From contig NZ_AWFF01000031.1 of NCBI RefSeq assembly GCF_000682755.1, forward strand, positions 1 through 64,000: a DNA stretch of 64,000 bases. The letters run 5' to 3'. The translations under genes and the position numbers were made by a program. Source of the DNA: Hyphomonas beringensis. Lineage in GTDB: Bacteria; Pseudomonadota; Alphaproteobacteria; Caulobacterales; Hyphomonadaceae. The notes beneath the pieces are model-generated. The model was not told the origin of the DNA. It searched no databases and saw only the letters and a program-made list of their open reading frames with translations. Of the stretch, positions 7,059 through 43,230 are shown piece after piece (positions within the stretch are counted from its first letter, which is position 1; each line of letters opens with the position of its first letter).

Positions 7059-7757
7059 ATGTGGCGAACAGGTCTTGCGGCTTTCTTCGCCCTGATCCTG
7101 ACGGGCCCTGCCCTGGCGCAGGGCCTGACAGTGTCACCGATCCGGATTGAGTCTCCGCCACAGGGTGGGCCGAACTCCATCCTGATCGGTTCCCAGCTGG
7201 AACAGCCGATCACCGTACAAGTAAGGGCCTTCAGATGGACCCAGACGGACGGCGAGGATCACCTTGCCCCGGATCCGGACCTGCGTCTGGCACCTGAGAT
7301 CTTCACGGTTTCACCAGGCAAGGCCCAGACCATCCGCATGCTTGTGCCGAATACGGAAGGCACAGGTAATTGGCGGCTGGTAATTGACGAATTGCCCACC
7401 CCTTCTTCTGCAGGCCCTGTTCCGGCCAATGGCCCGACGCAGCTGAACATCCGCATCCGCTATGTGCTGCCCATGTTCAGCAGCACCGCTGCTCCCGCCG
7501 ATGCGCTCAGCATCCGCCGGGAGGAGGATGGCATCACCCTGACCAATCACGGCAAGGGCTATCTGCGCCTTCATGATATGGCGCTGACACATGCTGGCGG
7601 CGAACGGGTCCCGACCAGCCCGCCGCTGGTCTATATCCTGCCTGGCGCCAGCATATCCGTGCGCGATGGCAATGGCAGCCCGGATGCGGAGATGACCGCC
7701 CTGCACTTCCGGATAGATGGCAATGCGCACACGCGGGACCTGAAGCCGGACCCGTGA
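7059..7757 (+). CDS. Periplasmic pilus assembly chaperone (PapD-like)
   Basis: A 232-residue periplasmic chaperone that stabilises SCPU pilins by donor-strand complementation and hands them to the usher. A signal peptide (about residues 1-20, ending ALA) precedes the first immunoglobulin-like domain (LTVSPIRIE...); the G1 strand motif PGKAQTIRMLVPN with alternating hydrophobics is present and the NWRLVIDELP segment matches the family. The second domain (from about residue 145) is SIRREEDGITLTNHGKGYLRL. Length fits archaic CsuC-like chaperones. Its stop overlaps the usher start (TGATG), so both are translationally coupled. Confidence 0.9.
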   Translation: MWRTGLAAFFALILTGPALAQGLTVSPIRIESPPQGGPNSILIGSQLEQPITVQVRAFRWTQTDGEDHLAPDPDLRLAPEIFTVSPGKAQTIRMLVPNTEGTGNWRLVIDELPTPSSAGPVPANGPTQLNIRIRYVLPMFSSTAAPADALSIRREEDGITLTNHGKGYLRLHDMALTHAGGERVPTSPPLVYILPGASISVRDGNGSPDAEMTALHFRIDGNAHTRDLKPDP

Positions 7758-10060
7758 TGCGTCTGGGCCTTGTCTCTTCTTCCAGCGTGCTGGTCAGCCT
7801 GGCCGCCAGTGCCGTGGAGATTCCTGATACGCCAAACGCCGGAGCGCCTTCGGCCTCCCCTTACCTGCTGGTGGAAATGAAGGTGAACGGACAGACCAGC
7901 CAGAGCGTGGTGGAGATTGTGAAAGTCTCCGCGGCCTGTGACCAGATCGCAGTGCGCTACCTGAACCTGGCCGGGCTTTACAATGCGCCGGAGACCGCAG
8001 TCTGCCTGCAGGATGTGCCCGGCATAGACTACCGGATCGACACAGCGACCGCGACGCTGGAAATCTTCACGCGCGCCGAACCGGAATTGCTGGCCGCACC
8101 GCACCATGCTCGCCCCACTTTCTTGCGCCCCACACCCGGCCTGCTGGGAAGTTACAGCCTGTCCGGCCAGCGCGTGGAAACGGAGAATGATACGGACTGG
8201 AACAGCTTCGGCAGCCTGTCCCTCGGCTTCTATGCCCCGGCCGGGCGGCTGGAGAATGAAGTCATCGCCAGCGTCACGGAGGATCGCTCCAATGTCCAGC
8301 GTATCCGGACGGTCTACCAGAAGGACTTCCCGGACAGTCTGACGACGCTGAGCCTGGGCGATAGCTTCACCCGCGCGCCCCGCTGGGGCCGTGTCACCGC
8401 CTTTGCCGGGTTGCAGATCGGCACGGATTTCTCGATGGACCCTGAAGGCAATTACATGCCCTTCCAGATGTTGAAAGCCCTGCTGCGCGACCAGTCCGAA
8501 GTCAACATTCGCATCAATGGCGTCACGCGCCGGCATGTCGGGGTAGATCCCGGCATGACCGAATTCGATATCGCCCCCCAGACCGGCCTCAATGAAGTGG
8601 AGATGGTGATCCGGGAGGAGACCGGCCTCACCCGGATTGAGAATTTCAGCTTTTTCAATTCCCGCACGGCCCTTGCGAAAGGGCGCACGGACTATTCGGT
8701 CAGCCTGGGCGTGCCACGCCGCTATGTCGGGGCCGAGGCCGCCTATCTGGACCGGGTGATCGGCAATGCCTATCTGCGCCGCGGCCTCAGCAATGAGGTG
8801 ACAGGCGAAGTCTATCTGGAAGCCAGTAATGAAGGCATGCTCGCAGGCACTGGCGCACAGCTGACCACAAGACATATCGGTGTGCTGAATGTCTCGGCTG
8901 CGCTCAGCGAGTCTGATGAGAGCGGCACCGGCGGCCTCTTCGCCGTCGGCTTTGAGCGCATCACCCGGCGCACCTCGCTGCAGCTGGAAGCGCGGTTTGC
9001 CGGCGATGCCTATCGCGATAGCGTGTCGGCCAATGGCGTGCCCTTCCCTGACCGGACAGTCCGCGCCAGTGTCGGTGTCGCCACCGGGCTTGGCTCTTTG
9101 CGGGCGTCCTATCAGGAAGAAGAGGATATTGATCTGCGCGACCGGCGCTTTGCCGCCCTGTCCTGGGAGCGCCCTTTTGAAAGCCAGAGGATCTCTGCCT
9201 TTGCCAGCGCCTATCACGATATGGAACAGGATGAGAGCGGCCTCAGCCTCGGCCTGCGCGTCCGGTTTGGCAACAACAAGACCGCCAGCCTCAGCCGCAC
9301 ACAATTGGACGATGACTATGCCAATGTCCTGCAGGTAAACGGCTCTTCGGGAAAGAATGACAGACTGCAATGGTCTGCTCAGGCCACGGATGGCAACCGC
9401 ACCGACAGCGTTCAGGCCTATGGCACCCTTCAGGGTCGCCAGGCCGAAATGTTCGCCAATGTCGGCCTTTACGAGTCCATGAACCAGGCCTCAGCCGGCA
9501 TTCGCGGAGGCTTTGCCATGGCGGGCGGCATGCTTGCGCTGCGCCGCTATGCCGGCACATCCGCCGCGCTGGTGAATGCGGACGGACTGGTGAATGTGGA
9601 CGTGTTCCATGATGGCCGCCCGGCCGGGCAGACCAATAATGACGGGCGCATCCTGATCATGGATCTGCGGGCACATGAGGCCAACAAGCTGAGCCTGGAG
9701 CCGGAAGACCTGTCTCTGGACTATGCCGTCGAGACATATGAAAAATCCGTACGCCCCATGCGCGGCATCGTGCAGGTGGACTTCAAGGCCCGCCGCGCCC
9801 TGTCGCTGGCCTTCACCATTATCCAGCGTGATGGCAGCCCCCTGCCCGTCGGCAGCACGGTGCGCATCCTTGATACCGGCGAACTCTGCCCGGTCGGCTA
9901 TGACGGCCGGGCCTGGTGTGAGCACATTCTGGATGACCAGACCGTGGAGGTTGTCACCCCCGAAGGGCGCTTTACGCAGAGGGCCGACCAATTGAGAGAG
10001 GAAGGCGTGATGAGACTGATCGATGCCCCTTCCCTGCGCATGGCGAGTACGGACAGATGA
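7757..10060 (+). CDS. Outer-membrane fimbrial usher protein
   Basis: A 767-residue outer-membrane usher through which the pilus is assembled and secreted. The N terminus carries a hydrophobic export signal (about residues 1-20), then the N-terminal chaperone-docking domain with a cysteine pair (SAACDQIAVRY, ETAVCLQDVPG), the 24-strand barrel with its TPGLLGSYSLSG entry and the conserved RFGDSFTRAPRWG-like segment (LGDSFTRAPRWG), a plug domain, and C-terminal domains ending near FTQRADQLREEGV. Length is typical of archaic ushers. An alternative GTG start lies 3 bp upstream. The stop overlaps the next pilin start (ATGATGA). Confidence 0.9.
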   Translation: MRLGLVSSSSVLVSLAASAVEIPDTPNAGAPSASPYLLVEMKVNGQTSQSVVEIVKVSAACDQIAVRYLNLAGLYNAPETAVCLQDVPGIDYRIDTATATLEIFTRAEPELLAAPHHARPTFLRPTPGLLGSYSLSGQRVETENDTDWNSFGSLSLGFYAPAGRLENEVIASVTEDRSNVQRIRTVYQKDFPDSLTTLSLGDSFTRAPRWGRVTAFAGLQIGTDFSMDPEGNYMPFQMLKALLRDQSEVNIRINGVTRRHVGVDPGMTEFDIAPQTGLNEVEMVIREETGLTRIENFSFFNSRTALAKGRTDYSVSLGVPRRYVGAEAAYLDRVIGNAYLRRGLSNEVTGEVYLEASNEGMLAGTGAQLTTRHIGVLNVSAALSESDESGTGGLFAVGFERITRRTSLQLEARFAGDAYRDSVSANGVPFPDRTVRASVGVATGLGSLRASYQEEEDIDLRDRRFAALSWERPFESQRISAFASAYHDMEQDESGLSLGLRVRFGNNKTASLSRTQLDDDYANVLQVNGSSGKNDRLQWSAQATDGNRTDSVQAYGTLQGRQAEMFANVGLYESMNQASAGIRGGFAMAGGMLALRRYAGTSAALVNADGLVNVDVFHDGRPAGQTNNDGRILIMDLRAHEANKLSLEPEDLSLDYAVETYEKSVRPMRGIVQVDFKARRALSLAFTIIQRDGSPLPVGSTVRILDTGELCPVGYDGRAWCEHILDDQTVEVVTPEGRFTQRADQLREEGVMRLIDAPSLRMASTDR

Positions 10061-10542
10061 TGAAGCGCCTTTTCTCTCTCGCGCTGGCTCTATGGCTGGC
10101 CCATGCGCCGCCATCCGAGGCGCAGCTGGGCACAGGCGCCACCTGTTCCGTCTCTGCATCGCCGATGCAGTTCATTTCCTATAATGCCTTTCTGGATCTT
10201 CCGAGCGATACGGTCTCTACCGTGACGGTCACCTGCTATGGCCTGCTGAACGTCAACATTCCCTACCAGCTGCGCCTGTCCTCGGGCCAGTCCGGCGACA
10301 TCAATGCCCGCCATATGACCAGTTCCGGAAGTTCGGACCAGCTGTCCTATCAGATCTACACAAACCTGCTGCGCACCAATGTCTGGGGCAATGGCACTCA
10401 AGGCAGCCAGATCAATGGCACGATGCTGGTGCAACTCATCGCCACGTCTTCCCTGCATACGGTGTATGGCCGCGTGCCCGCCGGTCAGGTCGTGCAGTCA
10501 GGCACGTATGATGACTCGCTGCTGGTCACAGTCGTCTTCTAG
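10057..10542 (+). CDS. Second spore coat U domain pilin
   Basis: A 161-residue secreted SCPU-domain protein, last gene of the pilus operon. Signal peptide at about residues 1-22 (ends SEA), then a single SCPU domain with cysteines at GTGATCSVSAS and VTVTCYGLL, a YQIYTNLLRTNVWGNG segment matching the equivalent FEYQLYTDAGFSTVWGD part of the first pilin, and the terminal strand DDSLLVTVVF. It could be a minor subunit or tip protein, but it is one-domain, unlike the two-domain CsuE tip adhesin. It overlaps the usher gene by 4 bp. Confidence 0.86.
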   Translation: MMKRLFSLALALWLAHAPPSEAQLGTGATCSVSASPMQFISYNAFLDLPSDTVSTVTVTCYGLLNVNIPYQLRLSSGQSGDINARHMTSSGSSDQLSYQIYTNLLRTNVWGNGTQGSQINGTMLVQLIATSSLHTVYGRVPAGQVVQSGTYDDSLLVTVVF

Positions 10543-26761: not shown

Positions 26762-27475
26762 TCAGGCGGCCTCCTCGATCTCATTGGATTTCGAGCTTGG
26801 GCGAGGGTCACGCAGCACATAGCCGCGGCCCCAAACGGTTTCGATATAGTGTTTGCCACCAGTAGCCTGCTGCAGCTTCTTGCGCAGCTTGCATATAAAC
26901 ACGTCGATGATCTTCAGTTCCGGCTCATCCATCCCGCCATAGAGGTGGTTGAGGAACATTTCCTTGGTCAGCGTCGTGCCCTTGCGCAGCGAGAGCAGCT
27001 CGAACATCTGGTATTCCTTGCCGGTCAGGTGAACGCGCTCTTCGTCCACTTCCACCGTCTTGGCATCCAGGTTCACAATGATTTCGCCTGTGCGGATCAC
27101 ACTCTCGGCATGGCCTTTGGAGCGGCGCACAATGGCGGTAATACGGGCGATCAGCTCGTCTTTGTTAAAGGGCTTTGTCAGGTAATCGTCTGCGCCGTAG
27201 CCGAGCGTCTTAACCTTGGCTTCGATGTCAGGGTTACCGGACAGGATCATGACCGGTGTGTTCACACGGCCCATGCGCAGCTGCTTCAGCACCTCATAGC
27301 CGGAGATGTCCGGCAGGGAGAGGTCGAGCACGATCATGTCGTATTCGTAGACTTTTCCGAGATCGACGCCTTCTTCACCAAGGTCGGTCGTATAGATGTT
27401 GAAGCCCGCAGCTTTCAGCATCAGCTCGATTGAACGCGCGACAGCGCTATCGTCTTCAATAAGCAGGACGCGCAT
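26762..27475 (-). CDS. ctrA: Cell-cycle response regulator CtrA
   Basis: A 237-residue OmpR-class response regulator, the master cell-cycle and polarity regulator of Caulobacter-like alphaproteobacteria. The receiver domain has E7-D8-D9, phospho-acceptor D51 (IVLDLSLPD) and K in [11 protein letters not shown]; the winged-helix domain contains the near-invariant CtrA recognition region [26 protein letters not shown] and [14 protein letters not shown]. It is normally phosphorylated through CckA-ChpT, represses the origin and activates flagellar, pilus and division genes. The C terminus ends in EEAA, in keeping with ClpXP degradation tags ending AA. It follows flhG on the same strand, 136 bp away, and has its own promoter region. 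Confidence 0.97.
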
Positions 27476-27611: not shown

Positions 27612-28451
27612 TTAATAGCCAAGCTCGGCAGCGGAGCCCGCACCGATCAGCATCTGTGAGATTGCGATGGCATCCTGGATCGGCTGCGCCTGCTGATCCG
27701 TCGAGATCAGTGTTTTCTGGCAGCGGATCGCATCCCGCACTTTCGGATCCCGCATAACGGTGCCCGCAAGGTGTGGACGGAAGCCAAGGAAGGTCTGGCA
27801 GGCGCGCGCGATCGCTTCATAGGTTCTTTGCCCTGCAGCGCGCGAATCGGCCTGGTTAATACAGATCACGGGTTCTACGTTCGGCGCGTAACCTCTCAGA
27901 ACCTTGATGAACGCATAGGCGTCCGTCATCGAGGTCGGCTCGTCCGTGATAACCATCAGCGCCTTGTCGGCGGCACGTGCCAGGCGCATGCAGTTCGCCT
28001 CGATGCCAGCGCCAAGGTCGACAACCACCTGATCATACTGGAGGGCCAGCGCAGAGAGACCCGCAGCAAGGCGGGCGACTTCTTCGGGCGGAAGCTCAGC
28101 GAGAGCGCCTGAGCCTGATCGGCCCGGCAGCACATCAAAACCACCTCCTGCAGCGCCGCCATCGACCGGCGTTACCGCATCATCCAGTTCAACCCAGCCT
28201 GCAATCACGGCAGCAAGGTCTGTTTCCGGGGCAATGCCCAGCTGAACGTCCACATTGGCGAGGCCAAGGTCACCATCGACCAGCAGGGTGCGCTTGCCGG
28301 CCTGCGCAAAGGCAGATGCGAGCGTGATGGCCATGAACGTCTTGCCAACTCCGCCCTTGCCGCTTGCAACAGCGATGATCGAAGCCGGAGCGACACGCGG
28401 AGCCGGACGCTGTTGCGGCCGATCCTGAGATTTTCGAAGCATGAAGCTCAT
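27612..28451 (-). CDS. flhG: MinD/ParA-type ATPase, flagellar number regulator FlhG-like
   Basis: A 279-residue deviant Walker ATPase: SGKGGVGKTFMAITLASAFA (about residues 31-50), DGDLGLANVDVQLG, the aspartate of VVVDLGAG and the NQADS nucleotide motif. It follows flhF by 4 bp, which points to FlhG (FleN/YlxH), the ATPase that limits flagellar number and counteracts FlhF at the pole, rather than to chromosome-partition ParA. The N-terminal 28 residues are basic with QDRPQQRPAP, comparable with the DQA region that stimulates FlhF GTPase in other FlhG proteins. A short C-terminal amphipathic segment (AISQMLIGAGSAAEL) could be the membrane-targeting helix. Confidence 0.85.
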   Translation of the reverse strand: MSFMLRKSQDRPQQRPAPRVAPASIIAVASGKGGVGKTFMAITLASAFAQAGKRTLLVDGDLGLANVDVQLGIAPETDLAAVIAGWVELDDAVTPVDGGAAGGGFDVLPGRSGSGALAELPPEEVARLAAGLSALALQYDQVVVDLGAGIEANCMRLARAADKALMVITDEPTSMTDAYAFIKVLRGYAPNVEPVICINQADSRAAGQRTYEAIARACQTFLGFRPHLAGTVMRDPKVRDAIRCQKTLISTDQQAQPIQDAIAISQMLIGAGSAAELGY

Positions 28452-28455
28452 GAGA

Positions 28456-29463
28456 TTACGCAGCTCCTTTCAGGGCGATCACATCGCCCGGGGCATCTTC
28501 CATCAACAAGGCAGCGAGCCGGGAGGGCGCTGCCGGCACCAGACCGCCACCGATAAACGGCGTCACGGCCAGGTGTGAGAAGGCAATTCCTGCCGACGAC
28601 AGGGCGGATATAGCTCCCCCCCTCCGTCGGGCAATGTCGAGTTTGGTCAGGATCGCGCGGCGGATGCCGGCGCGGGCAAAGGCACGGGCCGAATCGGCCT
28701 GATCTTCCGGATGGCCCTCAGCAGACATCACGAGCACGGGCTCGGCGCGCACAACGGCAATCAGGTCCTGCAGGCTGGCCATGTCATCCTGGTCAAACGG
28801 GTTGATGGCCGGCAGGTCGATGATGCAGCGATTGCCGGTCTCGCGCAGCTTGCGCAGCACATTGAACAGGGCGTCCGGCGTTTCGGCGATGCGGATCTGG
28901 CCGCGTTCCTGCTCCAGATAGGCAGCCAGCTGGTCACCCCCGGCCGTGCCGTCGAGGTCAGCCGCAACAGGCATGATCTGGGTGCGGGCCACGGCGGCGC
29001 GGCGCGTCAGCTTTGCAGCTGTGGCAGTGCGACCATGCCCGGGAGGGCCGACGAGAATGATATCTTTCTCCAGACGCGCCGGGATCGGATCGCAGGTAAC
29101 GATGCGCTCCAGACCGGCAGCGATGGAATCCTCAGGGGCGCAGCTTGGCGTACTGTGGCGCCCAGCGCCTTCATTGGCCACGCGGTCTGCAAAGCGCTGG
29201 GGGGCGCCATGCCAGAGCAGCGCATCGCGCACACGGCTGTAGAGGGGGTTTTCAGAACCGCGGCCATGACCACCACGCGACTCACGCAGGAAGAGTGGCT
29301 CGCTTGGCACGACCCCTCCGCCCAGCTTGTCTGTAGCCGCGCGGACCTCGACTCCCCCGTCGATCTCGCGCTCTGACAGGATCACCGCATCGGCGCCCAT
29401 CTCGGCAAAAATCATCGCCTTGGCAGCTTCGAAAGTCTCCGCGGCGAACATCTTCATGCGCAT
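28456..29463 (-). CDS. flhF: FlhF-like SRP-family protein with degenerate GTPase motifs
   Basis: A 335-residue homologue of the polar flagellar placement factor FlhF. The N-terminal FlhF domain (MFAAETFEAAKAMIFAEMGADAVIL) is well preserved, a helical N domain follows, then an SRP-type G domain. The P-loop reads GPPGHGRT (139-146) with arginine in place of the invariant lysine; the G3 motif, normally DTAG, is DLPA (216-219); G4 TKLD (273-276) is intact. GTP hydrolysis is therefore doubtful. AAGGGA is 12 nt before the ATG. It is followed directly by flhG and preceded by fliN after a 164-bp spacer that contains TTAA words. Confidence 0.83.
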   Translation of the reverse strand: MRMKMFAAETFEAAKAMIFAEMGADAVILSEREIDGGVEVRAATDKLGGGVVPSEPLFLRESRGGHGRGSENPLYSRVRDALLWHGAPQRFADRVANEGAGRHSTPSCAPEDSIAAGLERIVTCDPIPARLEKDIILVGPPGHGRTATAAKLTRRAAVARTQIMPVAADLDGTAGGDQLAAYLEQERGQIRIAETPDALFNVLRKLRETGNRCIIDLPAINPFDQDDMASLQDLIAVVRAEPVLVMSAEGHPEDQADSARAFARAGIRRAILTKLDIARRRGGAISALSSAGIAFSHLAVTPFIGGGLVPAAPSRLAALLMEDAPGDVIALKGAA

Positions 29464-29627: not shown

Positions 29628-29894
29628 TCAGGCAGCTGCACGTTCATCAACGATTTCGGACAGGGTGACCCCCAATTGTCCATCAGCGATGACCAGCTTG
29701 CCGCGCGCCATCAGGCGGTCGGAAAGGTAAATATCCACCGGTTCGTCTGTCTTGCGCTGAAGGGCAATGATGTCCCCTTCGGACATGGCCATCAATTCCT
29801 CGATCGGCATGCGCACCTCGCCCAGCACCACATCCACACGGACAGGCACATCCATCAGGCTCTTTTTCAGGGCGGGGTTTTCGGAATCAGTCAT
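29628..29894 (-). CDS. fliN: Flagellar motor switch protein FliN
   Basis: An 88-residue C-ring protein that forms the lower rim of the switch complex and, with FliH, docks export cargo. It is a single SpoA domain: LMDVPVRVDVVLGEVRMPIEELMAMSEGDII, then DEPVDIYLSDRLMARGKLVIADGQLGVTLSEIV, all conserved in FliN. The N-terminal extension is short (about 12 residues). AAGGA sits 6 nt upstream of the start and the gap to fliH is 14 bp, so it is part of the fliF operon. Unlike Caulobacter, where flbD follows fliN, no flbD is present here. Confidence 0.92.
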   Translation of the reverse strand: MTDSENPALKKSLMDVPVRVDVVLGEVRMPIEELMAMSEGDIIALQRKTDEPVDIYLSDRLMARGKLVIADGQLGVTLSEIVDERAAA

Positions 29895-29908: not shown

Positions 29909-30310
29909 CTATCCTCTGGATGGGTCGGATTTGAGGGATTGCTGCGCGGCGAACAGGTCCCCCTGCCCGTCTATGATGGTGCGGGCTGTCGCCCTTATTA
30001 ACCGAGTGGCCCGCTCACTGAAACCCTCGTCCAGCGCGCAGGCCTCCAGATGGCCTGTCAGGGCCACCAGATTGGCCAAGGCCTCGTTGAGGGCATTCGT
30101 GACCGCCTGCAAGCGTTCCGCCTCGTCACACGCCTGCTCAGCGCGCACAGTTGCGGCGCCTTCGGCCCGTGCCTCTGCCAATAGCTGTACCAGTTCGGGC
30201 GTTGTCAGGCGGACGGGTGGGTCGTCTTCGATGACAGCAGGCGTGGCTTGCGCACCGCTGAAATCGCTGCGGAAGTCAAAAGGCGTGAGGGATTTGACCG
30301 CGCGCTGCAT
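29909..30310 (-). CDS. fliH: Short FliH/FlbE-like flagellar protein
   Basis: A 133-residue protein between fliG and fliN, the position of fliH (flbE in Caulobacter), the stator-stalk protein that links the FliI ATPase to FliN. The N terminus is the family-like LTPFDFRSDF segment, then an acidic stretch, a helical region rich in Ala/Glu (LVQLLAEARAEGAATVRAEQA, an AxxxG-poor coiled coil) and a short C-terminal part. It is clearly shorter than the roughly 200-residue relatives. The assignment rests mostly on position and the helix pattern. The start overlaps the fliG stop (TAATG). Confidence 0.65.
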   Translation of the reverse strand: MQRAVKSLTPFDFRSDFSGAQATPAVIEDDPPVRLTTPELVQLLAEARAEGAATVRAEQACDEAERLQAVTNALNEALANLVALTGHLEACALDEGFSERATRLIRATARTIIDGQGDLFAAQQSLKSDPSRG

Positions 30311-31251
30311 TATTCGACCAGTTCGTCCTCATCTTCCGGCAGACCGCCGCGAATATCACCCTGGCTGATCAGGGCGCGCGCCAGGCGCACCAGCTCACGC
30401 CGAGCCGCTTCCACTTCGCTGCGGCGCACAGGGCCCAGCATGGCGATTTCTTCACGCAGCAGGCCGCCCGCACGTTGTGTCATGTTGCGGAAGAAAGCCG
30501 CCGCCGTTTCCGGCGTCGCCCCCTTCAGCGCCAGGGTCAGCACAGTGCGGTCTGAAGAGGACAGCAAGGTCTGCAGGCCTGCCGTGTCCATCTTGGCGAG
30601 GTCATCAAAAGTAAACATCAGCGCGCGGACGCGGTCGCCGACGCCTGGCTCGGCGCTATCCAGCGCAGAAAGCAAATTCTTCTCGGCCTGGCTGTCCAGC
30701 TGGTCAAAGATCCGGGCAATGCGCTCATGCCCGCTGGCAATGGAAGGCCGCAGACTATTGTCCAGCCAGCCGGTCACGGCCGTTTCCAGCCCCTTGAGCG
30801 CAATCGGGTTCACCGGACCGATGTGCAAGAGGCGCTGCATGATATCGACAGCCTGCCTCGTGCGGATCACTTTCAGAACGCGCGCGGCGGGCTCGCCGTC
30901 CATGCGCGACAGGATCAGCGCGATAGTCTGTGGATGCTGCCCACCCAGCAACTGGACAAGATCTGCCGTTTCCATGGCAGACAGCCGCGACCAGACGCTG
31001 CTGCCCGCTGCCGGTTTGGGGGTGTAGTGCGTGTGCGCCTTCACATAGGTCTGCACGGCTTCGGCCTCATGGCCGTAATCATCCTCCAGCGCGTCCATGG
31101 CGACAGACAGCGCATGGGCCTCTTCATTGGACAGCTCTCCCCAGACAGGGGCAGCATCGGGGCCAAGCGCGCGCATCAGACGGGCAGACCTGGCCAGGCC
31201 TTCCGGCGGGCGCGCAGACGGGCCAGCCTGTTTCAGGGCGAGGGCGTTCAT
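30310..31251 (-). CDS. fliG: Flagellar motor switch protein FliG
   Basis: A 313-residue C-ring protein that binds the FliF tail and meets the stator. FliG-N (ARSARLMRALGPDAAPVWGELSNEE), FliG-M with GGQHPQTIALILSRM (normally EHPQT) and FliG-C are all visible. Torque-helix charges are kept: K in LALKGAT, R in RNMTQR, E-E in LLREEI (aspartates in Salmonella), and R in GPVRRSEVE. The MFTFDDL motif is also present. The gene overlaps fliF by 4 bp (ATGA) and fliH at TAATG, so translation is coupled. The protein itself is close to normal length and looks functional, in contrast to its shortened partner FliF. Confidence 0.93.
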   Translation of the reverse strand: MNALALKQAGPSARPPEGLARSARLMRALGPDAAPVWGELSNEEAHALSVAMDALEDDYGHEAEAVQTYVKAHTHYTPKPAAGSSVWSRLSAMETADLVQLLGGQHPQTIALILSRMDGEPAARVLKVIRTRQAVDIMQRLLHIGPVNPIALKGLETAVTGWLDNSLRPSIASGHERIARIFDQLDSQAEKNLLSALDSAEPGVGDRVRALMFTFDDLAKMDTAGLQTLLSSSDRTVLTLALKGATPETAAAFFRNMTQRAGGLLREEIAMLGPVRRSEVEAARRELVRLARALISQGDIRGGLPEDEDELVE

Positions 31252-31922
31252 GCGGAGCCCCCTTCCCCATGCATCCAGCTGCGCAGGATGGAGGCTGTAC
31301 GGGCCGGATCTTTCTGGACGAGCTTTGCGGCAGCGCCGGGCTCAGCGGTCAGGGCCGGTTTGGCCTTCACCCGTTTCTCGACAAGGGCAGGCTCAAGCGC
31401 GGCTTCCACCGGCTCTGCGGTCCTGGCCCGTTTTGCATCCGCCGCTGGCACATCTGACGGCTTCAGCCCAATCCAGGCCAGCATTGCCAGCAAGGCCCCA
31501 TAGAGGCCAAGCTCTGTCCAGCCTGCAGCAGAGGGACGCCCCGGCACGCCGCGCGCAAAGGCGGCCTGCTCGATGACCAATTGGTCACCCTCTTCCGGAT
31601 TCATCATCAGTGCGGATGTTGTCAGGCGCTCCAGTGTGGGCGCCGCTTCACTGGCGCGCGTCGCCAGCAGGATCAGGACGGAATGGGACGTACCCTTGCC
31701 AGTAACCGACAGGCGGATATTCCCCATGCCCGCAACAGGCTCAAGAATGCCCATGAGAGAGGCTTCAACGTCAGAGCCAGGCACCCACTCATCGACGGGC
31801 TGAGTGAACAGGCTTGTCCCCCGCCAACAACCGAGAAGGATCACGATCAGACATGCAAACAGCGCGACGGCCTGTGTGGAGGGCCCCGCGCTGCGCTGTG
31901 ATTTTGCGAACCGAAAATCCAT
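31248..31922 (-). CDS. fliF: Truncated FliF-like MS-ring protein (mini-FliF)
   Basis: A 224-residue membrane protein in the fliF position; ordinary FliF is about 530-570 residues. Helix 1 is at about 18-33 and helix 2 at 138-153. Between them lie only the two edges of RBM3: ASLMGILEPVAGMGNIRLSVTG, like the L-E-P-(IV)-V-G-x-G start, then PTLERLTTSALMMNPEEGDQLVIEQAAF, like the end before the second helix. RBM1, RBM2 and the beta-collar are missing. The cytosolic tail ends with the FliG-binding DPARTASILRSWMHGEG. AGGAG 6-7 nt before the ATG supports the start, and ATGA overlap with fliG the end. Cys32 after LLG is a weak lipobox-like alternative for helix 1. Confidence 0.8.
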   Translation of the reverse strand: MDFRFAKSQRSAGPSTQAVALFACLIVILLGCWRGTSLFTQPVDEWVPGSDVEASLMGILEPVAGMGNIRLSVTGKGTSHSVLILLATRASEAAPTLERLTTSALMMNPEEGDQLVIEQAAFARGVPGRPSAAGWTELGLYGALLAMLAWIGLKPSDVPAADAKRARTAEPVEAALEPALVEKRVKAKPALTAEPGAAAKLVQKDPARTASILRSWMHGEGGSA

Positions 31923-31984: not shown

Positions 31985-31999
31985 TAAATTTGTGTTTAA
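31985..31999 (-). promoter_or_regulatory. CtrA-like box upstream of fliF
   Basis: On the minus strand TTAA-N7-TTTA, one mismatch from the CtrA consensus, about 63 bp before the fliF start and downstream of the sciP stop. A further GTTAACC word lies at 32013-32018. In Caulobacter the fliF promoter is a CtrA target, so the position fits; binding is inferred. Confidence 0.4.
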
Positions 32000-32029: not shown

Positions 32030-32302
32030 CTAGCCGCGATATTGCTGCAGTCGGGTCGTACGCAGCCCTTTGGTGCCGTGGCGGTTGTAGAGCTTTTCCC
32101 AGGTCTCGTATTCCTCGTCGCTCAGGCTGTAGCGATCACAGGCTGCCTTGCGGGTCAGCAGGCCACCAGACACTGCTGCAACGACTTCAGCTTTGCGACG
32201 CGTCACCCAGCGGGAGATGTTCGGGGACGGCAGGTCTGCCAGGGTCAGCGTCTGGCCGTCGGGGCCCTGTACGCCTTGGTTACGTGCATTATGTTTTTCC
32301 AT
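32030..32302 (-). CDS. sciP: CtrA inhibitor SciP (DUF1153)
   Basis: A 90-residue helix-turn-helix protein matching SciP, which binds CtrA at G1 and blocks recruitment of RNA polymerase to CtrA-activated promoters. The family block is strong: GPDGQTLTLADLPSPN, SRWVTRRKAEVVAAVSGGLLTRKAACDRYSLSDEEYETWEKLYNRHG and the terminal LRTTRLQQYRG. The ATG at 32302 gives MEKHNARN; a GTG 6 bp upstream is an alternative. It lies directly upstream of the fliF operon on the same strand, 107 bp away, the same neighbourhood as in Caulobacter. Its own substrate regulator, ctrA, is 4.5 kb downstream. Confidence 0.95.
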   Translation of the reverse strand: MEKHNARNQGVQGPDGQTLTLADLPSPNISRWVTRRKAEVVAAVSGGLLTRKAACDRYSLSDEEYETWEKLYNRHGTKGLRTTRLQQYRG

Positions 32303-32513
32303 GTCCACACCATTCTGGTTGCATAGTCGAAATCAGCCCGGCTTCTCCGGGAGCTGTGGACAGGAAGATACACTGAGGGGTTTAAGCCTAGACGTAAGGC
32401 AATCTGTGAGTTTTACAGCTTCGGTTAGGAGGATGTTCGTAAAGCTGTACCGCCCCGGTACAAGAGGTGAGAATCTCGTGCATTCATTACAGAAATGACA
32501 AGATTTTGGCGAA

Positions 32514-38129: not shown

Positions 38130-40085
38130 TTATTGACCCATATGCTGGTCAACAAAATCGGCCATGGCTTGCAGGGTCGCAAGACGCGTCTCACCGGATG
38201 ACAACCAGTGATCTTCGCCCTTCAGTTCAATAAAGGTGACGTCCTTACCGGCACTTTTCAAAGCATCCTCCATGATGCGGCTCTGCCGGATAGGCACCAC
38301 CGTATCATCGCGGCCATGGATCAGTAGAACTGGTGCCTGAAAGGCCGCAGCTGACGTAGCCGGCGAAATGGCATCAAGGTCCACATCTTCCGAATCTGGA
38401 TCTCCCATCTGGGTTTTCCAGTAATCAACGACCCAATGGTCACCCCCAGCATCCTTGACTTCCTGCCTCAGCATTGCTGGCAGATCTGAAACCCCAGCAA
38501 TCGAGATCACGCATTTGTAGAGGTCCGGCGTATAGGCCCCGCCTGCGAGAGCCGAATACCCACCATAACTGGCGCCCGCGATGCAAACACGCTCTGGGTC
38601 AGCCTTTCCTTCGTTGATCAGAATCTTGACGCCGTCAGTTACGTCATCCTGCATGGCTTTGCCCCACTGGCCGTAACCAGCAGTCGTGTGCGCCTGGCCG
38701 TAACCCGTGGAGCCACGGAAGTTTGGTTGAAGGACCAGATACCCCCTATTGGCAAAGTACTGCGCCATCCAGTCAAAACCGACATAATCATACGCGGCTG
38801 GCCCACCATGCGGAATAACGACAAGAGGCGCATTCTGTGTCGTTTCAAACGTCTTTCCAGCAGGAAGTGTCAGAATGCTTGGAATCATCAAGCCGTCACG
38901 AGCCGGGTAATTGATCGCCATGATCTCACCAATAGATTCTTTGGGGATGTCAGTACGCTGATCGAGGATACGTGTCAGGCCGCCCGTTGCCCTGTCTTCC
39001 AGAATATAGCTGCCAGTCGTATCACTGCCATTGAACAGATACAGAATTTTTGACCAGTCAGACGTCCAGTCAACAATCCGGATCGAGGATGCGGGAAAAG
39101 CCGCCAATAGGCTTTGCACACTCTGGTCGATCTCCGGATCAAAAAATTTGTAGGATGGCAAGGCACCTGAGTAACGCACGCCCACGACGAACCCATTTCC
39201 GTCTGTCAGCGTACCGTCAATATCCATCCCCTCTCTTCCGAGACCGAGTGATGTAATTTCACCTGAAAAACTCAGTTCATACAGCTCATCAAAGCCCGCA
39301 TCTTCGTTAGCCCCTTGTGACTTTACAAACAGAAGTCCGGACTTGTCTGACTTTACCCCTCGCAGAGAAATAGGAACCTGAGGTGCCTCGACCTCATAAA
39401 GCACTTCCTCCTTGCCATTTGCCCATGTGGTGATGCGATAGATATTCTTCCGGTTGTCATATTCTTCCCTGGCCAGAACCGTCCCGTCAGTATCTACATA
39501 GAAATTGATCGTATTGCTTGTCCCCTGCCATGCACGGCGCCCACGGCCATTGTCGAGATTTGCGCGCAGAAGCGTGTATTCAGGATCACGCGTCCCCATC
39601 CACGCCGCCATGAAGATGGTATTTTTGTTCTTTGCATCCCAGCCGATAATATGGCTTAGGCCACTTTGCGCGGGGTGAAGGCCTTTAGTCTCCCGCAATA
39701 GCGGCCGGTAATTACCCGTCTGCAAATTGTAGGAATAGGCCTGATACTTTTCGAACTGCCCCGGAATGCCGACCACGCGTTCTGTGTCAGAAGCAACAAT
39801 GATCAGGTGCTCGTTATCCGCAAACCCCAGGCTACGCGTAGATAGGTCTGTCAGCTTGAGGCGATAGTTCAACTGCCCCGTTCGCGCATCATAGATCGTA
39901 ACCAGGTCCGCCCCATCGGCACGTGTAATAAAAGCGACCAGATTGCCATCCGGTGAAATGGACATGGACCGGATTGCCGGCAACTCTCCATACGCCTCGA
40001 TAGATGGCTGAGGAACCTCAGCACTGGCTGGCTGACACACAAACAAAAGCATAGTCGCGCAGAACGCGGCAAAGACTCTGAACAT
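38130..40085 (-). CDS. Secreted S9 family prolyl oligopeptidase-like hydrolase (copy 1)
   Basis: A 651-residue exported serine peptidase. Signal peptide about 1-22 (ends ASA), then a beta-propeller N-domain (PAIRSMSISPDGNLVAFITRADG...) and an alpha/beta-hydrolase domain. The nucleophile is in GASYGGYSALAGG, the aspartate in HGRDDTVVP and the histidine in KGEDHWLS. It probably cleaves small peptides in the periplasm (dipeptidyl or acylaminoacyl peptidase type). A closely similar 651-residue copy lies at 41275-43230. Convergent with the methyltransferase, 32 bp between stops. Confidence 0.9.
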   Translation of the reverse strand: MFRVFAAFCATMLLFVCQPASAEVPQPSIEAYGELPAIRSMSISPDGNLVAFITRADGADLVTIYDARTGQLNYRLKLTDLSTRSLGFADNEHLIIVASDTERVVGIPGQFEKYQAYSYNLQTGNYRPLLRETKGLHPAQSGLSHIIGWDAKNKNTIFMAAWMGTRDPEYTLLRANLDNGRGRRAWQGTSNTINFYVDTDGTVLAREEYDNRKNIYRITTWANGKEEVLYEVEAPQVPISLRGVKSDKSGLLFVKSQGANEDAGFDELYELSFSGEITSLGLGREGMDIDGTLTDGNGFVVGVRYSGALPSYKFFDPEIDQSVQSLLAAFPASSIRIVDWTSDWSKILYLFNGSDTTGSYILEDRATGGLTRILDQRTDIPKESIGEIMAINYPARDGLMIPSILTLPAGKTFETTQNAPLVVIPHGGPAAYDYVGFDWMAQYFANRGYLVLQPNFRGSTGYGQAHTTAGYGQWGKAMQDDVTDGVKILINEGKADPERVCIAGASYGGYSALAGGAYTPDLYKCVISIAGVSDLPAMLRQEVKDAGGDHWVVDYWKTQMGDPDSEDVDLDAISPATSAAAFQAPVLLIHGRDDTVVPIRQSRIMEDALKSAGKDVTFIELKGEDHWLSSGETRLATLQAMADFVDQHMGQ

Positions 40086-41274: not shown

Positions 41275-43230
41275 TCACTCGCCGATATTCTGGTCCACGA
41301 AGTCCGACATCGCCTTCAGCGTCTCAATCCGCGTCTCACCCTGTGACAGCCAGTGGTCCTCTCCGTCCAGCTCGATCAACGTGACATCCTTGCCTGCCTT
41401 GCGCAGCGCCTTTTCCATGGCATGGCTCTGCTCAATATCCACAACCGTGTCATGCTTGCCATGGATCAGAAGAACCGGCGCCTTGAAATTCCCTGCTGAA
41501 TTTACCGGAGAGACGGAAGCCATGTCCACTTGCCCATCCTTCCCGCCGATGAACTTCGTCCAGTACGCAATCGCCGAAGACCCGCGGTCTGTTTCCTTGC
41601 GAAGGCGCCTCATCATCAAGGGAATGTCAGCCACCGGAGCAATGGCAACAACACATTTGTAGAGGTCTGGCGTATAGGCACCGCCCGCCAGGGCGGAATA
41701 GCCCCCATAGCTGCCACCGACAATGCATACGCGATCCGGATCAGCCACGCCTTGGCTGACAAGGGCGTTTACGCCATCGGTGACATCATCCTGCATCTTG
41801 CCGCCCCATTCTCCATAACCCGCCTCGACAAAGGCCTGTCCATAGCCTGAAGACCCCCTGAAATTGGGCTGTAGGACGAGATAGCCGCGATTTGCAAAAT
41901 ACTGGGCCATCCAGTCGAAATAGACTGGGACATTCGATTGTGGACCACCATGCGGAATGACGATCAAAGGCAGATCCGAAGCTGTCTGCATGTCGGCGCC
42001 CGCGGGCCATGTCACTATGGCGGGAATGCTCAGGCCGTCCCGTGCCGGATACGTCACCGCCACCATCTGGCCAATCGCTTCAGGCGGAATGCCTTGCCGC
42101 CCATCTGCGATAAAGCTGAGACTGCCCGTGTCGCGATCCTGCAGCACATACGTGCCAGGCGTGTCGCTACCATAAATCCGGTACAGGATTCTTGACCAGT
42201 CCTCAGTCCAGGCTTCCACATATACGGCCGCTGCTGAGAATTGTTCTGTCAGGGCACTTACCGCTGAGTCGACTTCTGGATCGAAGAATTTGTAGCGCGG
42301 CACCGGACCGGTATACCTCACACCTACGACAAAACGATTTCCATCCGTATAAACGCTACCGATATCCGTATCGCTTTTTCCGAGACCGGAAGGTTTAACG
42401 CTACCCTTGAAATCCATCTCGTAGACCTCATCATAGCCTTCTTCATTTTCACCGGATGAAACAAAGATTATGCCAGACTTGTCAGCCTTCACTCCCAAGA
42501 GAGAGAGTGGGACAAGGTCACTATCTTCTTCATAGATCTTTTCACGCTTACCGTTCACATAGGTCCAGATCGTGTAGATATCGCGTTCAACATTATAGTC
42601 TTCCCGCGCGAAGACGGTTCCGTCCATATCCGCAAACCAGTCAATCGTATGGGCGGTGCCGCGCTTGTACGTACCGCCCATGCCTGTCTCCAGGCTTACC
42701 CGCAGCAGATCCATGGTGGGGTCCGCCGGCGGCTTACCAATATAGGCTGGCATGTAAACGTGATCGGGTTTGTCGGAATAGCCAATAATTCTTCCGAGCC
42801 CGCCTTGGGCTGGCCAAAGGTCTCTGTTCCCACGCAAAAGCGGCTTCAAGCTTCCGGTCTTGAGATTATAGGAAAACGCCCCGGAATACTCGAAATCATT
42901 CTTATACCCATAAAGCCATTTCCGGTCTGATGCGAGTATGATGACATGCTCATCATCTGCAAACCAAACGCCACGCGCCGACACATCGCTGACTTTCAGC
43001 TTGTACTCGGTCTTACCGGTTTCGACGTTATGAAGGGCGAGAAAGTCAGTCCCATCATGACGCTGGATGAAACTGATCAATTTGCCATTAGGCGACATAT
43101 CCATCATTCGGATGGAGGGCAGATCGCCATATTCTTCGAGGGGAGGATGAGGAACTTCTGCGTTGGCAGTGCGCCCCGCACAAGCCAGGACCAATGCCAT
43201 CATCATGGCCGCAACAAAACGCATACTCAA
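41275..43230 (-). CDS. Secreted S9 family prolyl oligopeptidase-like hydrolase (copy 2)
   Basis: A 651-residue exported serine peptidase, similar along its whole length to copy 1: same signal peptide size (ends ANA), VPHPPLEEYGDLPSIRMMDM start, propeller, and hydrolase domain with WMAQYFANRGYLVLQPNF, nucleophile GGSYGGYSALAGG, aspartate HGKHDTVV and histidine DGEDHWLS. The tandem copies probably arose by duplication, with the luciferase-like gene left between them. The stop directly abuts the stop of that convergent gene, so the two transcripts have no room for an intergenic terminator. Confidence 0.9.
   Translation of the reverse strand: MSMRFVAAMMMALVLACAGRTANAEVPHPPLEEYGDLPSIRMMDMSPNGKLISFIQRHDGTDFLALHNVETGKTEYKLKVSDVSARGVWFADDEHVIILASDRKWLYGYKNDFEYSGAFSYNLKTGSLKPLLRGNRDLWPAQGGLGRIIGYSDKPDHVYMPAYIGKPPADPTMDLLRVSLETGMGGTYKRGTAHTIDWFADMDGTVFAREDYNVERDIYTIWTYVNGKREKIYEEDSDLVPLSLLGVKADKSGIIFVSSGENEEGYDEVYEMDFKGSVKPSGLGKSDTDIGSVYTDGNRFVVGVRYTGPVPRYKFFDPEVDSAVSALTEQFSAAAVYVEAWTEDWSRILYRIYGSDTPGTYVLQDRDTGSLSFIADGRQGIPPEAIGQMVAVTYPARDGLSIPAIVTWPAGADMQTASDLPLIVIPHGGPQSNVPVYFDWMAQYFANRGYLVLQPNFRGSSGYGQAFVEAGYGEWGGKMQDDVTDGVNALVSQGVADPDRVCIVGGSYGGYSALAGGAYTPDLYKCVVAIAPVADIPLMMRRLRKETDRGSSAIAYWTKFIGGKDGQVDMASVSPVNSAGNFKAPVLLIHGKHDTVVDIEQSHAMEKALRKAGKDVTLIELDGEDHWLSQGETRIETLKAMSDFVDQNIGE

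Follow-up and report, generated by a model that had tools for sequence, protein, structure and literature searches.

A reduced set of flagellar rotor and stator genes in Hyphomonas, probably encoding a motor without an axle

We analysed a stretch of 64,000 nt from Hyphomonas beringensis (contig NZ_AWFF01000031.1, positions 1 to 64,000; hereafter the window), in which the fliF position of a flagellar operon is occupied by a gene of only 224 codons, here called mini-fliF. Its product resembles the MS-ring protein FliF without RBM1, RBM2 and the beta-collar. Together with FliG, FliN and second copies of FliM, MotA and MotB (FliM′, MotA′ and MotB′), it belongs to a reduced set that is probably a flagellar motor, rotor and stator, without exporter, rod, hook and filament. 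A motor without an axle is the simplest reading because the lost or cut parts (RBM1, RBM2 and the collar, the later part of FliH, FlhA, the rod and the rings) serve export and the axis, while the kept parts serve torque.

The mini-fliF frame begins with an ATG that is preceded by AGGAG at a spacing of six bases, and its TGA overlaps the ATG of fliG (ATGA), as the original prediction had described. We extracted 30 Hyphomonas copies, all with open frames of 220–226 amino acids (aa), including one whose automatic start gave 207 aa and whose upstream ATG gives 222 aa. These 30 intact homologues rule out a frameshift or assembly artefact, which had been considered not obvious from the one sequence, and they are the relatives of similar length that had been sought in the Hyphomonadaceae. 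The junction with fliG reads ATGA in 24 of the 30 copies, GTGA in four, and TTGA and TGATG in one each. An alignment of 28 copies has invariant residues in the first helix (W33 and R34), the RBM core (E53, L56, A64, G65, G67, R70, S72, G112 and F122) and the tail (D205, P206, R208, A210, R214, W216 and M217), and mini-fliF holds the fliF slot in an operon with fliG in all 27 public loci. In another Hyphomonas genome (G002:C1:96386-97056), mini-FliF positions 1-179 and 155-224 lie in different frames, reflecting a frameshift or a sequencing error. A phage or mobile origin was set aside, as viral contigs gave no confirmed relative.

The AlphaFold model of mini-FliF, built from 28 rows, has a mean predicted local confidence (pLDDT) of 72 and of about 90 in its core, where ten-residue means are 87–94 across residues 51–120. 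In the model, an N-terminal membrane helix (16-40) and a second membrane helix (132-153) flank a core made of a helix (51-64), two strands (69-76 and 79-87), a second helix (88-105) and a third strand (114-120), the complete alpha-beta-beta-alpha-beta fold of RBM3. A short turn joins the first two strands where the beta-collar insert would lie. After the second membrane helix, a disordered linker leads to a tail helix (206-217, DPARxAxxLRxWM) resembling the FliG-binding one. RBM3 of Salmonella FliF is modelled as a split domain of residues 252-273 and 378-443 (PMC6079021). Since that RBM3 is itself split, mini-FliF would have lost the collar insert, RBM1 and RBM2. The original prediction held that only two edges of RBM3 remain, a view that the model corrects, as these edges are the split halves and together form the whole fold. 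Its claim that RBM1, RBM2 and the collar are lacking agrees with the short turn and with the absence of any Pfam or NCBIfam match up to E = 1, PF01514 (RBM1-RBM2) included.

FliF ring entries rank first and fourth to eighth in a Foldseek search with the model (E 0.014–0.029), the first being the Salmonella FliF ring. In a profile search of the Protein Data Bank (PDB), Salmonella FliF aligns to mini-FliF over residues 247-269 (the start of RBM3, very weak) and 406-559, which span the end of RBM3, the second membrane helix and the tail. We regard the identification of mini-FliF as a FliF minus RBM1, RBM2 and beta-collar, with a whole RBM3 core, as good because position, tail and fold agree; the sequence by itself makes a weak case.

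The genome of the window also encodes a complete flagellum. A search for a second, full-length fliF, which the original prediction had proposed, found the genome's sole PF01514 FliF (544 aa) on contig C98 inside a flagellar cluster with its own FliH, FliN, FliP, FliG (370 aa), FliM, MotA, MotB, FlhA, FliR and FlhB, and with rod, hook and filament proteins (those not run against Pfam were named by eye). The only FlhA of the genome and all five of its rod/hook (PF00460) hits lie in this cluster. A cell whose only flagellum has a mini-ring was rejected because of the complete system on C98. The FliG_C profile scores 118 bits for the window FliG and 37 bits for the C98 FliG. Because the full-length FliF lies in a complete cluster elsewhere, mini-FliF is not the rotor of the swimming flagellum, and swimming, if any, uses the separate C98 system. 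The original alternatives, a functional rotor built on a minimal ring or a membrane anchor put to new use, pointed in the right direction, except that the rotor is not that of a swimming flagellum. That prediction was to be abandoned if a full-length fliF lay elsewhere and the small gene had no relatives; the full-length gene is there, and so are the relatives, since mini-FliF is conserved across the genus and in four other genera.

The presence of a resident flagellum raises the alternative that the window set is an alternative or additional rotor and stator set mounted on the C98 flagellum. FlhA is present in 64 of the 73 mini-FliF carriers in the family, and no flhF or flhG was spotted by eye among the C98 cluster frames, both of which suit such an accessory role. 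Yet the C98 system is equipped with a FliF, FliG, FliM, FliN, MotA and MotB of its own, and the window set is kept in nine of 12 genomes without flagellar axial genes, and we consider this alternative improbable.

The gene orders indicate that an ancestral flagellar fliF operon shrank in place. A genome of a sister genus (G103) carries the uncut operon: DUF1153, fliF (560 aa), fliG (364), fliH (242), fliN (113), flbD (460), flhA (714), flhF (331) and flhG (282). The window has DUF1153, mini-fliF (224), fliG (313), a shortened fliH′ (133), fliN (88), flhF (335), flhG (279) and ctrA, so that flbD and flhA are missing and fliF, fliG, fliH and fliN are shorter than in G103. By tblastn, four more sister-genus loci have DUF1153, FliF, FliG, FliN, FlhF and FlhG in that order; a full-length fliF sits at the mini-fliF place in all five sister-genus loci, each with DUF1153 upstream. 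FliH′ matches the initial two fifths of classical FliH (P = 4e-5, probability 70%) and ends in QGDLFA, where classical proteins end in QGDLFA, QLDLFA or QLDIFK; between these two parts it lacks the segment that carries the ATPase-binding region of the classical protein.

The other loci repeat this pattern. In G103, dksA is followed by one frame and then flgH, flgA, flgG, flgF, fliL and fliM (flg and fliL names by eye), whereas in the window genome dksA is followed directly by fliM′, with flgH, flgA, flgG, flgF and fliL missing. The motB neighbours of G103 are largely common to six carriers (G000, which is the window genome, and G017, G021, G064, G081 and G089; loci of the G009 type were excluded). 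At the motA site, an MFS-like neighbour is common to G103, G017 and G081 by eye, and none was seen in G000. The mini-fliF operon and the fliM′, motA′ and motB′ loci revealed no FlhA, rod, hook or filament genes belonging to the module. In a quick, unrooted FliG tree of 101 of the 110 extracted rows (identical rows and rows below 230 aa were dropped), all 62 window-type FliGs form one group (support 99) next to 23 classical FliGs (68), and the two together are set apart (SH-aLRT 100) from 16 C98-type FliGs. In the sister genus, G103 and G105 also have a second flagellar-like cluster (L186:14353-15477 and L187:7785-8909) with a 374-aa FliF that matches PF01514 and apparently has no RBM3/collar or FliG-binding tail, a reduction opposite to that of mini-FliF; the single FliG hit of each genome belongs to the classical system.

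The remaining proteins indicate that a rotor and stator set of FliG, FliM, FliN, MotA and MotB is kept. Its genes are spread over four contigs of the window genome: C31, which is the contig of the window, C33 (FliM′, a divergent 426-aa frame), C25 (MotA′, 301 aa) and C32 (MotB′, shortened, up to 252 aa). The torque charges of FliG were matched to the known ones by motif. Among 53 rows outside the flagellum-less list, K243 is kept in 52, R260 in 52 (with one gap), E/D268 in 52 and R/K276 in 52; among nine flagellum-less carriers the counts are eight, nine, nine and eight for K243, R260, E268 and R276, respectively. Classical FliM carries LNQDEIDSLL as its CheY-binding site, and FliM′ begins with VLSPAEIEALL, in which E, I and LL are invariant in eight of eight rows. 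The identity of FliM′ rests on its C domain and its fold, and its model matches the C-ring FliM (E = 6e-11). MotB′ lacks most of the linker; all 10 module rows aligned, of which six come from flagellum-less genomes, retain the Asp of YADFLTA and the OmpA-like domain. In MotA′, the helices around DALPALGIVAAVLGI are preserved, and an E in the cytoplasmic loop is invariant across all 10 rows.

We found the module in genomes that appear to be without a flagellum. A profile search detected mini-FliF in 36 of 37 Hyphomonas genomes and 73 of 105 genomes of the family, which include FlhA in 92, PF01514 FliF in 90 and FliG_C in 100; the five genera with the classical system (g16, g17, g19, g20 and g22) gave no mini-FliF match. 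Both FlhA and PF01514 FliF are missing from 13 of the 105 genomes. In a PF00460 search of 19 genomes, 12 of these 13 had no rod/hook hit and the other seven genomes searched had three or more; the thirteenth, G083, has three hits and is 87% complete, and is probably an incomplete assembly rather than flagellum-less. Nine of the 12 keep mini-FliF: G017, G021, G062, G063, G081, G086, G089, G112 and G091 (completeness 99, 93, 88, 86, 100, 95, 99, 80 and 90%, respectively; the G091 match is weak, E = 8e-4). All nine have FliG_C, two FliMN_C proteins, of which one has the size of FliN and the other that of FliM, and a MotA_ExbB hit within a MotA-type frame, the MotA sequences having been read for seven; MotB was found in seven. 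In the FliG tree, G081, G086 and G089 cluster together, as do, separately, G062 and G063, while G112, G021 and G017 stand beside flagellated sisters and G091 lies on a long branch. Since these carriers fall in about six places of the tree, about six losses of the flagellum probably occurred in which the module survived. That species apparently without a flagellum keep the bare motor suggests a job other than swimming. A search for an empty flagellar site, covering about 1.1 Mb of the G089 genome (3.6 Mb) with flanks from G072, G084 and G076, found one left-flank frame (C1:172 kb, 50-53%, apart from its neighbours) and one weak match elsewhere, which speaks neither for nor against loss.

Across the order, scoring at most the best seven candidates per genome in a sample of 398 genomes gave at least 76 matches, at least 67 of them inside the window's family. 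The nine listed matches outside the family were rejected as mini-FliF relatives, being weak (E 3e-5 to 9.5e-4) and lying in frames of 501-573 aa. Eight of them match only within mini-FliF positions 69-224 and are taken to be ordinary FliF; the ninth, in G338, matches positions 21-82. A 2.5-Mb genome, G073, retains flhF and fliN (L214:6938-8315), and no mini-FliF or FliG was found in it; the module is being lost there. It was considered as a further carrier and rejected, as the frame upstream of fliN is unrelated and has, by eye, the look of a tRNA thiouridylase.

Rates of substitution bear on a third alternative, a decaying and functionless relic of a replaced flagellum. We calculated ratios of nonsynonymous to synonymous rates (dN/dS) by the NG86 method for ten pairs, with at least one flagellum-less member in six; the values are rough, several dS exceeding 1. 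They range from 0.05 to 0.38 for mini-FliF and from 0.03 to 0.15 for FliG, indicating purifying selection on both where tested. For mini-FliF, four flagellated pairs gave 0.05–0.16, G021 gave 0.145 and 0.18 against G001 and G010, and G017 gave 0.18 and 0.20 against G023 and G011. Between flagellum-less genomes, the ratio is 0.19 for G062-G063 and 0.38 for G081-G086 (0.55 by YN00; dS is high). Decay would fit the fast evolution of mini-FliF, most of the genus being 32-42% identical to the window copy, and the three small genomes without it. In contrast, the frames are open and of constant length in 30 copies, dN/dS is well below 1, the tail and RBM residues are invariant and the parts are kept on four contigs of the window genome, so that a relic is very improbable.

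The reduction thus removed flhA (exporter) and flbD (regulator) from the operon and axial genes from beside fliM; for the working of the remaining motor we propose the following. FliF rings contain about 33–34 subunits; a mini-FliF ring and a FliG-FliM-FliN ring may assemble as the rotor, which would be driven by a proton-conducting, peptidoglycan-bound MotAB stator. In the weakest step, the motor would turn or strain in the inner membrane and report load, surface contact or proton-motive force. We put at about even the chance of the full proposal, a stand-alone proton-driven rotary machine with stator, C ring and an RBM3-only ring, lacking exporter, shaft and appendage, that an entire bacterial lineage kept, after flagellum replacement and several later losses of swimming, for sensing or for moving something within the envelope. 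A dedicated load or contact sensor, possibly timed by CtrA, is our leading but tentative guess for its use; second comes a mechanical output, in which an envelope or surface structure would be moved. The sensor is suggested because the Caulobacter motor is reported to signal adhesion without an L ring or flagellin, the mechanical adhesion pathway requiring MotB proton flux and an inner-membrane rotor and still acting in flgH and flagellin-secretion mutants (PMC7885107), and because Tad-pilus work ties the motor to surface sensing (PMC6581867). A ‘hat-like’ structure of the inner membrane, which H. neptunium shows as well, was left aside as a product of the module; it is unlikely to come from a one-family module, since it is reported in numerous distant species, including E. 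coli and Bacillus (PMC9380563).

Several observations count against the motor and its evolutionary history as set out here. Besides the lack of any family match, the PDB profile search gives Salmonella FliF a weak overall E of 0.025, and a designed membrane protein, matched on the first helix alone, outranks it. Foldseek returned nothing at E 0.001 or better, with KH-domain proteins close behind FliF, and hhalign probabilities are only 35% (P = 4e-4) against full-length FliF of sister genera and 73% (P = 3e-5) against the C98 FliF. The original statement that FliG keeps its torque charges holds for K243, R260, E268 and R276 and fails at E267, which is variable (E in 30, S in nine and D in eight of the 53 rows; E in four and S in three of the nine flagellum-less carriers). 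The FliM′ middle domain has no Pfam PF02154 signal, and the model's mean pLDDT is 59 overall, with the middle domain mostly at 80-90. In the FliG tree, the window group lies on a long branch, the classical group has a support of 68, and the program issued a long-branch warning. Two of the nine flagellum-less carriers show no MotB, and several such genomes are 80-95% complete and fragmented. An assembly gap could mimic flagellum loss because the flagellar cluster is a single block of about 30 kb, though this is less likely in genomes that are 99-100% complete and in the two tree groups. The module is dispensable, since the small flagellum-less genomes G061, G073 and G092 have no mini-FliF. No obvious signalling partner appears in the neighbourhoods listed.

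The neighbourhood of mini-fliF (Table 1) offers the serious rival to a rotating machine, a repurposed scaffold in which mini-FliF anchors a non-rotating FliG/FliM/FliN ring that marks the cell pole or a cell-cycle site, while MotAB serves otherwise. Such a static polar scaffold would place the ring with FlhF and FlhG, near the DUF1153 protein, which we take to be of the SciP family, and a response regulator, presumably CtrA. DUF1153 lies upstream in all 27 public loci; flhF lies behind the operon in 15 (one contig stops inside flhF) and flhG in 14, where it is 95-99% identical. Some members of the genus have the ctrA-like gene beside the operon, as do six loci retrieved from a second genus (L136-L138 and L146-L148). 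Of 30 homologous upstream regions, 23 have what we assume to be a CtrA box, TTAA-N7-TTNA, at -74 to -80, compared with a background of 0.02 per 150 bases in the same loci, the sites at -74 to -80 counted in; the other seven have TTAA-N7-TTAG or -GTAA at that site. The 23 regions are not independent because the loci are related. The promoter and the flhF/flhG linkage favour the scaffold, but no flhF is seen behind the operon at 12 of the 27 loci (some contigs being cut), flagellum-less genomes have MotA′ and MotB′ alongside the ring genes, with channel, torque-loop and peptidoglycan-binding residues preserved, and FliG retains most torque charges, which a static scaffold would not need. We judge this rival unlikely, if less so than the accessory role, and retain the motor as the preferred reading.

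Table 1. Features of the mini-fliF operon and its surroundings in the window
Feature	Position	Strand	Description
ctrA-like response regulator	26762..27475	minus	adjoins the operon in part of the genus
flhG/MinD-like ATPase	27612..28451	minus	279 aa
flhF	28456..29463	minus	335 aa
fliN	29628..29894	minus	88 aa; FliMN_C, 82 bits
FliH′, shortened	29909..30310	minus	133 aa; profile positions 7-86 match the N-terminal region of classical FliH
fliG	30310..31251	minus	313 aa; shortened N domain, middle domain (QHPQ), C domain with torque-helix charges
mini-fliF	31248..31922	minus	224 codons, ATG start
CtrA-box-like TTAA-N7-TTTA	31985..31999	minus	77 bases upstream of the mini-fliF start
DUF1153 protein	32030..32308	minus	upstream neighbour of mini-fliF

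Elsewhere in the window, two similar 651-aa open reading frames (ORFs; 38130-40085 and 41275-43230), judged by eye to be S9 peptidase-like, lie on either side of another ORF and are a probable tandem duplication, and three ORFs at 7059-10542 resemble, by eye, a chaperone-usher pilus set. The labels Acidobacteria/Sulfopaludibacter on four public loci (L049, L055, L056 and L060) are probably wrong, as a Hyphomonas-type locus is present.

Every part of the module is of known ancestry, and we know of no close parallel to the assembled machine, if it is real. Flagellar motors are built around an export gate and turn a rod; a rotor and stator without gate and rod would, if the reading is true, be the smallest flagellar motor, and would point to a role of RBM1, RBM2 and the collar in export and the rod, not in torque. 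Whether a motor can run without an axle, and to what end, would then become directly testable in culturable Hyphomonas, of which several named species have the locus. Other ring proteins with RBM folds belong to the same superfamily: the injectisome protein SctJ keeps RBM1-RBM2, the reverse of mini-FliF, and SpoIIIAG combines an RBM-type domain with a collar-type insert that mini-FliF lacks. We found no description of such a motor module in the literature covered, which was open access, with most subscription journals outside. The main text of a study of MotAB evolution does not mention ‘Hyphomon’, ‘Caulobacter’ or ‘loss of’ (PMC12505986), nor does that of a Caulobacterales survey mention fliF or fliG (PMC12700997).

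Compared with the bacterial flagellar motor, the module has homologous parts, the ancestral operon and loci, and the proton-channel and most torque residues; it differs in a FliF without RBM1, RBM2 and collar, in a shortened FliH and MotB, and in persisting in genomes where no flagellum was found. To our knowledge, Myxococcus gliding and other MotAB-like motors have no FliG/FliM/FliN rotor, whereas the Hyphomonas module keeps the flagellar one. These 5:2 motors reportedly share with it proton-driven stator homologues that work without a flagellum (PMC9120999, PMC9389320). The Lysobacter flagellar remnant likewise belongs to a bacterium that has no flagellum and keeps part of the flagellar gene set, and it is the mirror image, being reported to have lost fliG, fliM, motA, motB, rod and filament genes with the export apparatus working (PMC9927559), while Hyphomonas keeps the motor and its export genes are missing. 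Caulobacter crescentus motor mutants resemble it in the suggested use, as a rotor with MotAB and without a filament is reported to be still able to signal there (PMC7885107). That is a mutant state of a full flagellum, whereas Hyphomonas would show a fixed evolutionary state with reduced proteins, in which no link to a diguanylate cyclase was seen. If true, the module would be a natural and dedicated version of the motor-as-sensor idea, which in Caulobacter rests on mutants.

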